Below, piece after piece: positions 40,216 through 48,362 of a DNA stretch of 64,000 nucleotides (the first letter of the stretch is position 1; every line of letters begins with the position of its first letter). Source of the DNA: Pseudobacteriovorax antillogorgiicola. Lineage in GTDB: Bacteria; Bdellovibrionota_B; Oligoflexia; Oligoflexales; Oligoflexaceae. The position numbers were made by a program, and so were the translations under genes. The stretch is taken from positions 1 to 64,000 of the forward strand of contig NZ_FWZT01000032.1 of assembly GCF_900177345.1 (NCBI RefSeq). Reading direction: 5' to 3'. The notes under the pieces are model-generated. The model saw nothing but the letters and a program-made list of their open reading frames with translations, was not told where the DNA came from and made no database searches.

Positions 40216-40485
40216 GCTGATCCCTTACAAGTTTTTCGCTGCCGAGTTTAAACCCGCGTATCCTAACAATCGGGTATCTTGGCTGAACTCTGACTTACCA
40301 TTCCGTAAGATGTATTCATGACATCGGTTCGTCAGTTCACGACTTGAGATCTTGATTTAATGCACTGTAATTAATGGATTTAATGTTTTGGTAAAGACCT
40401 TCAAGGTAGCGCAAGCTCCTTGTAAAATGTCCGTAGACCACGTAGCTGTCGGTTTGTTACCTTGGGGGACATAGGAGGGAGTAGA

Positions 40486-43400
40486 TTGACTGTCGTTGTT
40501 GTAGCAGAAAAGCCTTCGGTGGCTCGCGATATTGCAAAGGTCTTGGGTGCCGATCAGAAAAGAGATGGATATTGGGAAGGTTCAAACTACCAGGTTACTT
40601 GGGCGCTAGGACACCTTGTCCGTGTTGCGGAGCCCCACGAGATTGACCCTCGATGGAAGGAGTGGCGTCGCGATACCCTACCGATGATTCCTGAGCGTTG
40701 GCCACTCCTCGGTAATCCAAAAACTAAAAGTCAATTGGAGGTGGTAACGCGCTTACTTGGCAGCAGTGAGCGCGTGGTGTGTGCCACAGATGCTGGGCGC
40801 GAAGGAGAGCTGATCTTTCGCTATATTATCGAGAAGGCGTCTTGTCGAAAGCCAATGCAGCGCCTTTGGATTTCTTCACTCACTCCTGAAGCGATTCGCA
40901 CAGGATTCGAGAGGCTACGTCCCGTCAAAGACTACGACTCACTGGCAGATGCAGCACGGGGACGGAGCCGCGCTGATTGGCTAGTGGGGATGAACCTGTC
41001 ACGGGCCTACTCCTTGTGTTTTGGCGATAGCTTCTCAGTGGGCCGTGTTCAAACACCGACCCTGTCGATTTTAGCGCAGCGTGAGCTAGACATTCAAAAT
41101 TTTGTCCCAGAGGATTACCGAGAAATTCAAGGGGTGTTTCGGGGCCACGGACAGAGGGAAGAGTTCACTGCGATGCTCTTCGATCTCAAAAGCAAAAAAG
41201 CCAAGCGCTTCAAGGATGATGATAAAATTCTTAAAGCTGTTCTGGAAGAGTTAAAGGGTGATCGCTATCAAGTTGAAAAGGTCGAAGAAAAGACGATTCA
41301 GCTAGAACCCCCCTTGCTTTTTGATTTGACTGAACTGCAAAGACACTGCAATCGGCTTTATGGGTTTCAATCTCAGAAAACTTTGGATATCGCTCAGTCA
41401 CTATACGAGAATCTAAAGCTCATTAGCTATCCAAGAACAGACTCTAGATATCTATCGAGAGATATGACTAGCGGGCTGCCCCGGATTGTGCAATCGATCC
41501 GTGAGCCTTATGATGATCAGATTCAGGAAGACACGGGAAATAGACCACTTGGGTCACGCTATATCAATGACGGTCGCGTTACTGATCACCATGCGATTAT
41601 CCCTACCGGAGTCCTTTCATCCCGCATGAGTCAAGACCAGGCTAACGTGTTTGATGCCATCTGTAGACGCTTTCTTATGGCTTGGCAAAAACCGTATCGC
41701 TATGCCAGTACCAACGTCTTGGTGAAGGGCCATGAGCATCAAGATAATGTATTTCAAGCTCGGGGAAAAAAGCAGCTGGAGCGCGGCTGGAAATCCCTGG
41801 AAACGGGGAAGGGGAACGACAAAGATCGTTTCCTGCCATCGTATCTACAAGCAGACCTGGCGGTTGATCTTGCATCGTTGCAAGAACTCAAGAAGCAAAC
41901 TCAAGCACCACCAAGGCTTACCGATGCTAGTTTGCTCACAGCTATGGAAACAGCTGGTCGTCAGTTGAATGATAAGGAGCTTTCCGCCGCTATGAAAGAG
42001 CGGGGCTTGGGAACACCGGCTACCCGTAGCTCGATCATTGAAACTTTGATTCAGCGCCAATATTTGGTGCGCGAGGGTAAGCAGTTTCACGTCAGCAGAA
42101 AGGGCTTGCGGTTGATCGAGCTGGTTCATGATGATGTCAAAAGCCCAAAAATGACAGGAGAATGGGAATTTACCCTGCGGCAAGTTCAAGACGGTAAAAT
42201 ATCTTTGAAGCAGTTTTCCCAGGATATCCAGTCTTTTGTTAGCAAGGCAGTTGCAAAAGTGCTTGAACAGGCGCCGGCTCGCCCCTCGACGCAGATTCCA
42301 GCTATGGCTGGGGCATCTTCAGACTTAAAAATTGGACAAGAAGTGATTCGACATAAAACCCCCGCCGCAGAGCTTCGCCCTCTGCTTAAAAAGATTTTCG
42401 GCTTTGAACGCTTTCGGCCATATCAAGAGGATGTTTGCAGAGACATCGTTAGAGGTCGAGATGCTCTACTCGTGATGCCAACGGGGGCGGGAAAGTCACT
42501 TTGCTATCAGCTTCCAGGAATGGCGCTTGGCGGAACCACTGTGGTGATTAGCCCTTTGATTGCATTAATGGACGATCAGGTGGAGAAGTTACAAGCAACT
42601 GGCTTGAGGGCAGAAGCCATTCACTCTGGTAAAGGACGTCAAAGGTCTAGGGAAATCTGCCGGGAGTATCTGGAAGGTCAGCTTGATTTCCTTTACATTG
42701 CTCCAGAGCGGTTAGGTGTCCCTGGTTTTGTACCACTTTTGGGAAAACGAAAGCCCACATTGGTAGCTATCGATGAGGCTCACTGTATCTCTCAATGGGG
42801 CCATGACTTTCGCCCTGACTATCGCATGTTGAAAGAGCGACTTGAACCTTTGAGGCCTTCTGTGATCGTTGCGATGACCGCGACAGCAACACCTCGTGTT
42901 CAGAAAGATATTGTCGATCAGCTTGGTCTTGTGGAAGCTAGTATTCATAGTCATGGCTTTCGCAGGACCAATATCGCCATTGAAAGTGTTGAAGTCAGTC
43001 GACCGCAGCGGGTCGAGGTGATCAGGAAGCTCTTGAGTAAGGAGCAGCATAGGCCAGCGATTGTTTATGCCCCCACGCGCAAGCAGGCCGAGGAGTGTGC
43101 TGCAAAGCTAGGGCAAGGAGCGCAGATCTATCATGCTGGAATGTCTGCCGAGCGACGCGCCCAGGTGCAACGAGACTTCCTTGAAAACAAAGTTGATGTC
43201 ATGGTCGCGACAATTGCTTTTGGAATGGGAATAGATAAGCCCGATGTTCGGATGGTGATCCATATGGCGTTTCCTGGAAGCATGGAGGGCTACTACCAAG
43301 AAATCGGTCGTGCGGGGCGGGATGGGAACCTGTCCCGAGCTGTGATGTTCTTCTCATTTGGCGACTTTAAGACTCACGAGTTTTTTCACAAGAAAAATTA

Positions 43401-44340
43401 TCCCGAACGGATTGATTTGAAGGCTGTCCTAAAACAAATCCCTGATGCAGGTATCGAGCGAACAATGCTAAGACCTCCGGTTGAAAAAGACGATATTGAA
43501 ACCTATCTAGAAAAACTTTGGGTCCATGGGGCTATAGAGTTTAAGGGGAATGATGAGGTTTTTACAACAGGTAAGGCTTGGGAGCTGGCCTATGAAGCTC
43601 AGCGGCAGCATCGCTTTGGTCAACTCAAGGAAGTCTCTCAGTATGCTCAAAACCAAGGTCAGTGTCGCATGTTGCAACTTATGGAGCACTTTGGAGACCC
43701 CGATGCTAATGGTGTGGTATGTGGCATCTGCGATGTGTGTGCTCCTGATAATACCAATGTGAAAAGTTTGCGGCTGCTCGATGAGACTGAGAAACAGCAC
43801 TTGAAAACGATTATGAGCGCGCTGAGTTCGGATCGCTATTTAGCGGTAGGCACGCTCCAACGGAATCATATGGATCCTCTCAAGGTGAGTCGCAGTCGAC
43901 TTGAGGAGTACATTGACCTTCTAGTGCGAGAAGATTTCGTAGGCACGGAAACTAAAGTTTTTCAAAAAGATGGTAAAGATATCTCTTACCGCGTCCTTTT
44001 TCGATTAAGAATTATGAACCAATTGCACCTGAACACCATGCAAATTGCCGATATTCAAGATTTGAAGCGTTCTGGTGCTAGCCGGAAACCTAGCAAGAGA
44101 GTCAGTAGGAAGGCAGCGGTCACAGGCTATGACGATGCTGTCTATCAGAAGCTCAAGGACTGGCGTCTTAAAGAATCTAAACTCAAAAAAATGCCCGCAT
44201 TTCGTGTTCTAAGCGATCGGACACTTCAGGAAATTGCCTTGAATTTGCCTAAGACTGAGGAAGATCTACTCGGAATATCGGGGGTAGGGCCGAGTAAATA
44301 CGAGAAATTTGGGAAGAAAATTCTGGATCTTCTCCATTAA
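40486..44340 (+). CDS. topoisomerase III-RecQ helicase fusion protein
   Basis: 1284 residues starting at TTG 40486 with AGGAGG seven bases upstream. Residues 1-590 are a type IA topoisomerase of the TopB kind: VVVAEKPSVARDIA (Toprim Glu), CATDAGREGELIFR, SVGRVQTPTL and the active-site Tyr in LISYPRTDSRYL (about residue 315). A 40-residue linker follows. From about 630 it is a RecQ helicase: MPTGAGKSLCYQLP (Walker A), AIDEAHCISQWGHDFRPDY (DEAH), ATIAFGMGIDKPDVR, QEIGRAGRDG, and zinc cysteines ending in CGICDVC. The final 75 residues are HRDC (LKDWRLKESKLKKMPAF, LLGISGVG). All key residues of both enzymes are kept. One chain thus joins the partners that elsewhere dissolve double Holliday junctions. 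Confidence 0.9.
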   Translation: MTVVVVAEKPSVARDIAKVLGADQKRDGYWEGSNYQVTWALGHLVRVAEPHEIDPRWKEWRRDTLPMIPERWPLLGNPKTKSQLEVVTRLLGSSERVVCATDAGREGELIFRYIIEKASCRKPMQRLWISSLTPEAIRTGFERLRPVKDYDSLADAARGRSRADWLVGMNLSRAYSLCFGDSFSVGRVQTPTLSILAQRELDIQNFVPEDYREIQGVFRGHGQREEFTAMLFDLKSKKAKRFKDDDKILKAVLEELKGDRYQVEKVEEKTIQLEPPLLFDLTELQRHCNRLYGFQSQKTLDIAQSLYENLKLISYPRTDSRYLSRDMTSGLPRIVQSIREPYDDQIQEDTGNRPLGSRYINDGRVTDHHAIIPTGVLSSRMSQDQANVFDAICRRFLMAWQKPYRYASTNVLVKGHEHQDNVFQARGKKQLERGWKSLETGKGNDKDRFLPSYLQADLAVDLASLQELKKQTQAPPRLTDASLLTAMETAGRQLNDKELSAAMKERGLGTPATRSSIIETLIQRQYLVREGKQFHVSRKGLRLIELVHDDVKSPKMTGEWEFTLRQVQDGKISLKQFSQDIQSFVSKAVAKVLEQAPARPSTQIPAMAGASSDLKIGQEVIRHKTPAAELRPLLKKIFGFERFRPYQEDVCRDIVRGRDALLVMPTGAGKSLCYQLPGMALGGTTVVISPLIALMDDQVEKLQATGLRAEAIHSGKGRQRSREICREYLEGQLDFLYIAPERLGVPGFVPLLGKRKPTLVAIDEAHCISQWGHDFRPDYRMLKERLEPLRPSVIVAMTATATPRVQKDIVDQLGLVEASIHSHGFRRTNIAIESVEVSRPQRVEVIRKLLSKEQHRPAIVYAPTRKQAEECAAKLGQGAQIYHAGMSAERRAQVQRDFLENKVDVMVATIAFGMGIDKPDVRMVIHMAFPGSMEGYYQEIGRAGRDGNLSRAVMFFSFGDFKTHEFFHKKNYPERIDLKAVLKQIPDAGIERTMLRPPVEKDDIETYLEKLWVHGAIEFKGNDEVFTTGKAWELAYEAQRQHRFGQLKEVSQYAQNQGQCRMLQLMEHFGDPDANGVVCGICDVCAPDNTNVKSLRLLDETEKQHLKTIMSALSSDRYLAVGTLQRNHMDPLKVSRSRLEEYIDLLVREDFVGTETKVFQKDGKDISYRVLFRLRIMNQLHLNTMQIADIQDLKRSGASRKPSKRVSRKAAVTGYDDAVYQKLKDWRLKESKLKKMPAFRVLSDRTLQEIALNLPKTEEDLLGISGVGPSKYEKFGKKILDLLH

Positions 44341-46705: not shown

Positions 46706-47289
46706 AAGGCAATAAAGTTCCTAAGCATAGTTTGGCCAATGGCAGCAGATTTTTCAGGATGAAATTGGGCACCAAAGAAATTATCTTTCTCAACAAGGGC
46801 TGGAATTTCCACACCGTAATGGGTCGCTGCTTTTGTGTACTGATTAATCGGGCCTTGAAATGAATGGACGAAGTAAACAAAAGAGCCTTCTTCCACATTT
46901 TTTAGCAAGGCACTATCTGATTTGAAACTTAAGCGGTTCCAGCCCATGTGGGGTAGCGTCAGTCCTTCGTTCCTGGGAATTGCCGTCACCCGGCCAGGGA
47001 TCATACCCAGGCAGGCTGTTTGACCCTCATCCGAACCCTCGAAAAGCAACTGCATTCCCAGGCAGATTCCTAACGTTGGCTGAGTCAATCGCGGTAGCAT
47101 CTCACTAAGCTCCGCTTTGATAATTTTGTCCATAGAAGCTCGTGCTGCTCCCACGCCGGGTAGAAGAACTTTTTCTGCCTTAAGTATGATGTCTGGGTCC
47201 TGAGTGATGATCCAGGGGCAATCCAGTCGGTCTATGGCATTACTAACAGAGGAAAGGTTTGATCCTCCGGTGTTGACAATGGCTATCAT
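46702..47289 (-). CDS. hisH: imidazole glycerol phosphate synthase, glutaminase subunit
   Basis: Class I glutamine amidotransferase that feeds ammonia to HisF. The nucleophile Cys is in PTLGICLGMQLLFEGS, the His/Glu pair in GAQFHPEKSA; LLPGVGAA is the usual early motif. 195 residues. Four-base overlaps with hisB and hisA. Confidence 0.94.
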   Translation of the reverse strand: MIAIVNTGGSNLSSVSNAIDRLDCPWIITQDPDIILKAEKVLLPGVGAARASMDKIIKAELSEMLPRLTQPTLGICLGMQLLFEGSDEGQTACLGMIPGRVTAIPRNEGLTLPHMGWNRLSFKSDSALLKNVEEGSFVYFVHSFQGPINQYTKAATHYGVEIPALVEKDNFFGAQFHPEKSAAIGQTMLRNFIAL

Positions 47290-48362
47290 AGCATTCCCTT
47301 TGTAGATGGAAGTTCACCCGATTGGTCGTTTTTCACAGCTTGGCGAAGCGTCCTAGCGAGACCTTTGAAAAGTCCTTCAACTTTGTGGTGATCGTTGCCG
47401 CCTTCAATGCTCATGTGAAGGTTTGCTCCTAGAGACTCAGCAAACGATCTGAAGAAGTGAGGCACCATTTCTGTGGCCAGTTCGCCAACCATATCCCTTT
47501 TGAACTCTCCCTTAAAAATAAAGTAAGGGCGACCACCAAGGTCGAGACTTACCTTTGCTTCAGACTCATCCATGGGCAATACAAAGCCGTAGCGCTGGAT
47601 GCCAATCTTGTCGCCAAGAGCTTTGCGGAAACACTGTCCCAGTGCTAAGCCGATATCTTCTACCGTATGGTGGTCATCGATATGAAGGTCACCTTCACAG
47701 GCAACCTTGAGTGAAAAGCCACCGTGCTTGGGCAACTGTTCTAGCATGTGATCGAAAAAACCAATTCCTGTGGCGAAGTGATTCAGACCTGTGCGATCGA
47801 GATCGATTTCAATGTTGATTGCAGTTTCCTTCGTCTTGCGGCTGACAGTGGCTTGACGCCTAAGAGACGTTAGCTCGTGAGCGATATCATCCCACGATGC
47901 ACCTTGCGTGGCATCAGGTTCATTAACACGAATGCCACGAATTCCCATGCGTTCCGCTAAGAGTAGATCGGAGTCCCGATCGCCGATGACAGCGGAGCGA
48001 TCTCGATCCCAATGAGGATCTTGCAAATAAGGCAGAACCAAATCAAGATTGGGCTTACGGCAGCCGCACTGATCTGACGGCAGATGTGGGCAAATCAAAG
48101 TAGTCTCGAATTGAATCCCTTGGCTTTGTAGTAGCTTCATCAAGAACTGATGTGGAACATCAAAGTCTTCTTGAGGAAAACTCTCTGTCCCCAAACCGTC
48201 TTGATTGCTGATCATGACTAGAGTATAGCCGTGACTTTGGAGCTTTAATAAACTAGGGATGACTCCCGTAAGTAATTCGATCTTATCGATGCGATCAACT
48301 TGTTCATCCTCCGGCTCTTTGCAAATGGTACCATCTCGGTCGATGAATAATAGCTTTTTCAT
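47286..48362 (-). CDS. hisB: bifunctional histidinol-phosphatase / IGP dehydratase
   Basis: The N-terminal HAD phosphatase (LLFIDRDGTICKEP, MISNQDGLGT, zinc cysteines in CPHLPSDQCGCRKP, VIGDRDSDLLLA) is fused to imidazoleglycerol-phosphate dehydratase (FFDHMLEQLPKHGGFSL, DDHHTVEDIGLALGQ, EGGNDHHKVEGLFKGLARTL). 358 residues, the enterobacterial-type fusion. Four-base overlaps on both sides. Confidence 0.94.
   Translation of the reverse strand: MKKLLFIDRDGTICKEPEDEQVDRIDKIELLTGVIPSLLKLQSHGYTLVMISNQDGLGTESFPQEDFDVPHQFLMKLLQSQGIQFETTLICPHLPSDQCGCRKPNLDLVLPYLQDPHWDRDRSAVIGDRDSDLLLAERMGIRGIRVNEPDATQGASWDDIAHELTSLRRQATVSRKTKETAINIEIDLDRTGLNHFATGIGFFDHMLEQLPKHGGFSLKVACEGDLHIDDHHTVEDIGLALGQCFRKALGDKIGIQRYGFVLPMDESEAKVSLDLGGRPYFIFKGEFKRDMVGELATEMVPHFFRSFAESLGANLHMSIEGGNDHHKVEGLFKGLARTLRQAVKNDQSGELPSTKGML

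Follow-up and report, generated by a model that had tools for sequence, protein, structure and literature searches.

Related systems and the architecture of the fusion gene

E. coli and human cells make topoisomerase III and RecQ as separate proteins. Separate enzymes of the RecQ family and the topoisomerase III family function together in dissolution in eukaryotes, and the E. coli pair does so in vitro (PMC8191776). This teamwork is disputed in bacteria, however, as E. coli genetics published in 2026 found topoisomerase III to act with RecG and not with RecQ (PMC13244152), in contrast to the cooperation observed in vitro. In yeast, Top3 and Sgs1, which belong to these enzyme families, have been joined covalently by engineering (Bennett and Wang 2001, as cited in PMC3905885), in a system that is artificial and eukaryotic. 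In Listeria, the same two genes lie side by side, 23 bp apart with recQ first (L077), however their proteins are separate. The literature searched, which reached few subscription papers, yielded no description of a natural TopB-RecQ fusion.

Such a fusion is encoded on the positive strand of the window, the 64,000-nucleotide stretch of DNA analysed here. Its features, in order, are the following (residues in 1284-aa numbering):

40473..40478, + strand: Shine-Dalgarno-like AGGAGG, 7 bases 5′ of the TTG, read directly
40486..44340, + strand: TopB-RecQ fusion gene, 1284 aa, TTG start, assigned from the open frame, the start and ribosome-binding site, and the domains
40495..40878, + strand: Toprim domain (Pfam), with E8, D102, and E106 invariant in 37 aligned fusions
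40933..42216, + strand: type IA topoisomerase core (Topoisom_bac, Pfam)
41428..41430, + strand: codon of the active-site tyrosine, Y315 in YPRTD, invariant in 37 fusions and aligned with YPRSD of E. coli TopB
42262..42369, + strand: linker of 36 aa, rich in Ala/Pro/Ser/Thr, from the open frame and linker comparison
42415..42906, + strand: RecQ helicase lobe 1 with Walker A TGAGKS, DEAH, and an aromatic-rich loop (Pfam, alignment)
43009..43326, + strand: RecQ helicase lobe 2 with the QEIGRAGRDG motif (Pfam, alignment)
43405..43593, + strand: ~63-aa insert that separates helicase lobe 2 from the zinc domain (alignment; boundaries approximate)
43594..43740, + strand: RecQ zinc-binding domain (PF16124 over cut-off), with C1060, C1079, C1082, and C1085 invariant
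44134..44331, + strand: HRDC domain (PF00570, 67.8 bits)

The longest ATG/GTG/TTG frame at this locus begins at 40462 and encodes 1292 aa, however the TTG at 40486, the start also chosen in the first-pass annotation, is the better candidate, with the AGGAGG seven bases upstream. The frame runs without interruption through 42250-42400, where a join had been suspected, and the codon-position G+C pattern is constant along the gene, with no break in composition. No gene neighbour of the fusion is conserved among the relatives compared.

Pfam identifies Toprim, Topoisom_bac, DEAD, Helicase_C, RecQ_Zn_bind, and HRDC in this order, all over cut-off. The protein exceeds the NCBIfam cut-offs for TopB (560 against 516 for TIGR01056 topB; 663 against 597 for PRK07726) and that of the RecQ family model TIGR00614 recQ_fam (394 against 220), while the strict E. 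coli-type RecQ equivalogs are not reached (498 against 640 for TIGR01389). In the alignment of 37 fusions, which takes in the divergent G015 and G035 and leaves out G022, the Toprim residues, active-site tyrosine, Walker A, DEAH, aromatic-rich loop, motif VI, and zinc cysteines are all invariant; three divergent fusions (G015, G022, and G035) fail simple motif patterns in the topoisomerase half. The region corresponding to the decatenation loop of E. coli topoisomerase III is present and is shorter in the alignment. Pfam finds no C-terminal topoisomerase zinc repeats in the fusion, and the TopB proteins of Listeria and Cytobacillus carry cysteine-containing C-terminal extensions at the point in the alignment where the fusion has RecQ. 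The first-pass annotation had described one protein joining topoisomerase III to RecQ, with a complete TopB-like domain and its active-site tyrosine, a complete RecQ with Walker A, DEAH, zinc cysteines, and HRDC, and an absence of C-terminal topoisomerase zinc fingers, and this description is borne out throughout.

Across the fusions, the linker ranges from 21 to 291 aa (median 55), is of low complexity and rich in Ala/Pro/Ser/Thr, and appears to serve as a tether, not a rigid latch. HRDC is undetected by Pfam in a number of fusions, including those of G001, G396, G404, and G427. The ~63-aa insert is common to the fused and stand-alone RecQs of this subfamily and is absent in the RecQs of E. 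coli and Listeria; it is uncharacterised, and its presence marks the subfamily whether fused or stand-alone.

One close counterpart is the dissolvasome (BLM/Sgs1 with Top3-Rmi1, or E. coli RecQ with topoisomerase III in vitro), which is built from the two enzyme families of the fusion, type IA topoisomerase III and RecQ bearing a zinc domain and HRDC. The fusion differs in being one covalent chain and in carrying the RecQ insert; in addition, Pfam finds in it no Rmi1-like domain and no match to the RQC winged helix, the region of which aligns only loosely. Reverse gyrase resembles the fusion in combining an SF2 helicase-type motor with a type IA topoisomerase in one chain, however its order is the opposite and its motor is a helicase-like domain, compared with the true RecQ and the flexible, variable linker of the fusion.

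Distribution and evolutionary history

A total of 44 single-frame fusions were read, the window's included, of which 12 are in its own phylum and 32 in a second phylum, reached through a single distant locus of another species. The finding of the same joint protein in dozens of genomes from two bacterial phyla indicates that the fusion is real and old. In the window's phylum, represented by a sample of 58 genomes that are all of one class, perhaps Oligoflexia, the fusions span nine genera and four families, and the relatives with the same domain order recovered in a first search share 35-53% identity. Approximately 48 of the 377 second-phylum genomes sampled seem to bear the fusion, judged by open-frame length and matches. 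We infer that this second phylum is Myxococcota, since MYXO-CTERM domains turned up in nine of the 15 genomes examined from it (51 in one genome of 13.3 Mb) and in none of 14 control genomes. Breaks in the fusions of G003, G022, G002, and G434 are at contig ends, and the one in G006 is a frame break of a very fragmented assembly; G003, G022, and G006 are counted among the 44 because one frame spans the junction. No match covering 80% of the fusion was found in phage records or among the plasmid matches listed. The relative G001 encodes a fusion without detectable HRDC (L061 2682-6362). Elsewhere in its genome (L055 4976-7015) there is also a stand-alone RecQ, which does have HRDC and clusters with the RecQ half of the window's protein.

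The fused TopBs form one clade relative to 14 stand-alone TopBs with support of 100/99, in a tree from which contig-edge rows and the longest branches were left out and whose grouping is less clean when these are included. In 41 fusions, TopB distances correlate with RecQ distances (r 0.93), and 0 of 2000 permutations gave a value as high. The single clade and the correlated distances together indicate one old fusion whose halves have evolved together, TopB-RecQ being one unit under selection. The RecQ trees differ: RecQs of this subfamily that stand alone are interspersed among and nested within the fused ones, at least seven changes are forced, and a topology that keeps all fused RecQs in one group is rejected (AU p 5e-59); the full RecQ tree is a quick one. 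Given this nesting, the simplest reading is a single fusion, after which the topoisomerase half was probably lost on repeated occasions. Such losses fit the finding that in several stand-alone-RecQ genomes (G066, G179, G221, G202, G099, and G287) nothing matches the TopB model beyond a distant, TopA-like hit; some stand-alone RecQs, though, are close to the end of a contig and may be fragments of fusions. Several fusions have no detected HRDC and the topoisomerase half has seemingly been lost repeatedly, so that coupling of the two enzymes appears to be useful but dispensable.

Other topoisomerases and recombination helicases

Only two type IA topoisomerases were found in the genome that carries the window: the fusion and an enzyme in an 878-aa frame (G000:C11:151410-153485, L068). 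The best model for the latter is PRK08173 topoisomerase III, which it matches below cut-off, and it carries two C-terminal topoisomerase repeats. Canonical TopA was not found in this genome, G001, G004, or G005 by a search that does recover TopA-like proteins in other genomes, and its place seems to be taken by the repeat-bearing topoisomerase III of PRK08173 type. Whether separate topB and recQ genes accompany the fusion, a point raised by the first-pass annotation, has a divided answer: the genome yielded no further TopB over cut-off and no further RecQ with zinc and HRDC domains, however it does encode this second topoisomerase III-type enzyme and a second, short RecQ (484-aa frame) in which Pfam detects the helicase core only.

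RuvC is present in this genome, as in all 17 of the genomes tested, and its loss is therefore rejected as the reason for the fusion. No match reaches the RecG cut-off in any of the 56 genomes of the window's phylum that were searched. The sole strong match in the window's own genome, an assembly that is 96.9% complete and in which single-gene absences could be gaps, is Mfd (977.5 bits to TIGR00580). Nearly all strong RecG-model matches in the phylum are in Mfd-sized frames, and both of those checked are Mfd; assembly gaps are an unlikely cause of the phylum-wide absence. In some of the myxobacterial fusion genomes the RecG-like matches run the full length; in others there are partial, Mfd-like matches only. 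Loss of RecG as a simple cause of the fusion is unsupported, since there are fusion-less relatives without RecG and several myxobacterial fusion genomes with it, and the absence of RecG does not follow the distribution of the fusion, either inside each phylum or across the two.

Proposed function and alternative readings

With some reserve, we judge it probable that the fusion is a one-chain RecQ-topoisomerase III strand-passage machine acting on joint molecules, in which the coupling, the substrates, and the biological role are predictions. Topoisomerase III and the RecQ helicase would be made as a single chain with a flexible tether between them. RecQ would open the duplex at joint molecules such as converging forks, D-loops, or double Holliday junctions, and would pass a single strand to the tethered topoisomerase for strand passage, unlinking the molecules. 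In this arrangement, RecQ occupies the position at which other topoisomerase III-type enzymes have C-terminal DNA-binding zinc repeats, and the machine may have a role in recombination or in the completion of replication. Dedicated dissolution of double Holliday junctions, suggested by the first-pass annotation, is plausible, however the presence of RuvC implies that dissolution would not be the sole route for these junctions.

Counting for a coupled machine, both cores are complete and over their cut-offs, the catalytic residues of both halves are invariant in the 37 fusions, the halves descend together in 44 fusions of two phyla, and the adjacency of recQ and topB in Listeria is an independent link between the pair; the dissolution carried out by separate pairs and the engineered yeast fusions also favour it. 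Counting against it are the apparent losability of the topoisomerase half, the several fusions with no HRDC match, the presence of RuvC, the lack of a conserved gene neighbour among the relatives compared, and the report that topoisomerase III in E. coli is partnered by RecG, not by RecQ. It is possible, though doubtful, that RecQ is now the fixed helicase partner of topoisomerase III in this RecG-less phylum, such that TopB-RecQ would perform the joint-molecule work of RecG and topoisomerase III in E. coli. An old and conserved covalent fusion is strong natural evidence for the use of a RecQ-topoisomerase III pairing in some bacteria. Its occurrence in a phylum without detectable RecG makes it a pointed test case, and point mutants of the single-chain enzyme could test the coupling directly.

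Several alternatives to this strand-passage machine concern what the protein is. That the gene is a product of a frameshift or an assembly join of two neighbouring genes is next to impossible: nothing was found in its support, and it is untenable because the 43 further genomes carry the same domain order in single frames. The label given by PADLOC would instead make the protein a DpdF-like helicase of a 7-deazaguanine DNA modification and defence system, as profile PDLC02865 'DpdF' matches it with 1258 bits. Both halves of the window's protein match this profile, while its name refers to a helicase of a DNA-modification system; the TopB half on its own reaches 614 bits, and E. coli TopB itself reaches 286 bits. 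The NCBIfam DpdF model NF041063 gives 205.8 against a cut-off of 550, and the six flanking genes scanned contain no strong defence match and no dpd-type match, such that a DpdF identity is effectively refuted and hardly credible. Because the TopB half and E. coli TopB match it, PDLC02865 evidently models the TopB-RecQ fusion family, and a myxobacterial fusion aligns to positions 20-1311 of its 1499 with 1696 bits. The fusion family is already catalogued in PADLOC-DB 2.0.0 under the misleading name DpdF, and PDLC02865 may give false calls of Dpd defence.

Other alternatives accept both enzymes and concern their relationship. The shared chain may serve only dosage or co-localisation, with the two enzymes working largely independently through a flexible linker. 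The low-complexity linkers of 21 to 291 aa are consistent with such a co-expression fusion, as is the apparent loss of the topoisomerase half many times with RecQ kept, however both catalytic sites are intact in 37 fusions, the halves co-evolve, and a single ancestral fusion has persisted across two phyla; we regard this alternative as rather unlikely, if the most serious of those considered. A reverse-gyrase-like enzyme, in which the helicase motor would drive the topoisomerase and change linking number by positive supercoiling, has a precedent in reverse gyrase itself, a known fusion of a helicase-like domain with a type IA topoisomerase, and the role of a eukaryotic reverse gyrase was once suggested for Top3-Sgs1 (Gangloff 1994, likewise cited in PMC3905885). 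Against this, the topoisomerase comes first, the helicase is a true RecQ with a zinc domain, the linker is variable and flexible and not a latch, and the reverse gyrase profile TIGR01054 gives 103.7 bits, far below its cut-off of 471.7. On these grounds a reverse gyrase is rejected as highly improbable.

A further frame in the window, at 47286-48362, looks by eye like a HisB-type fusion. It has a histidinol-phosphatase-like region at the N-terminus and an imidazoleglycerol-phosphate dehydratase-like region after it, and sits in a his gene cluster on the reverse strand.
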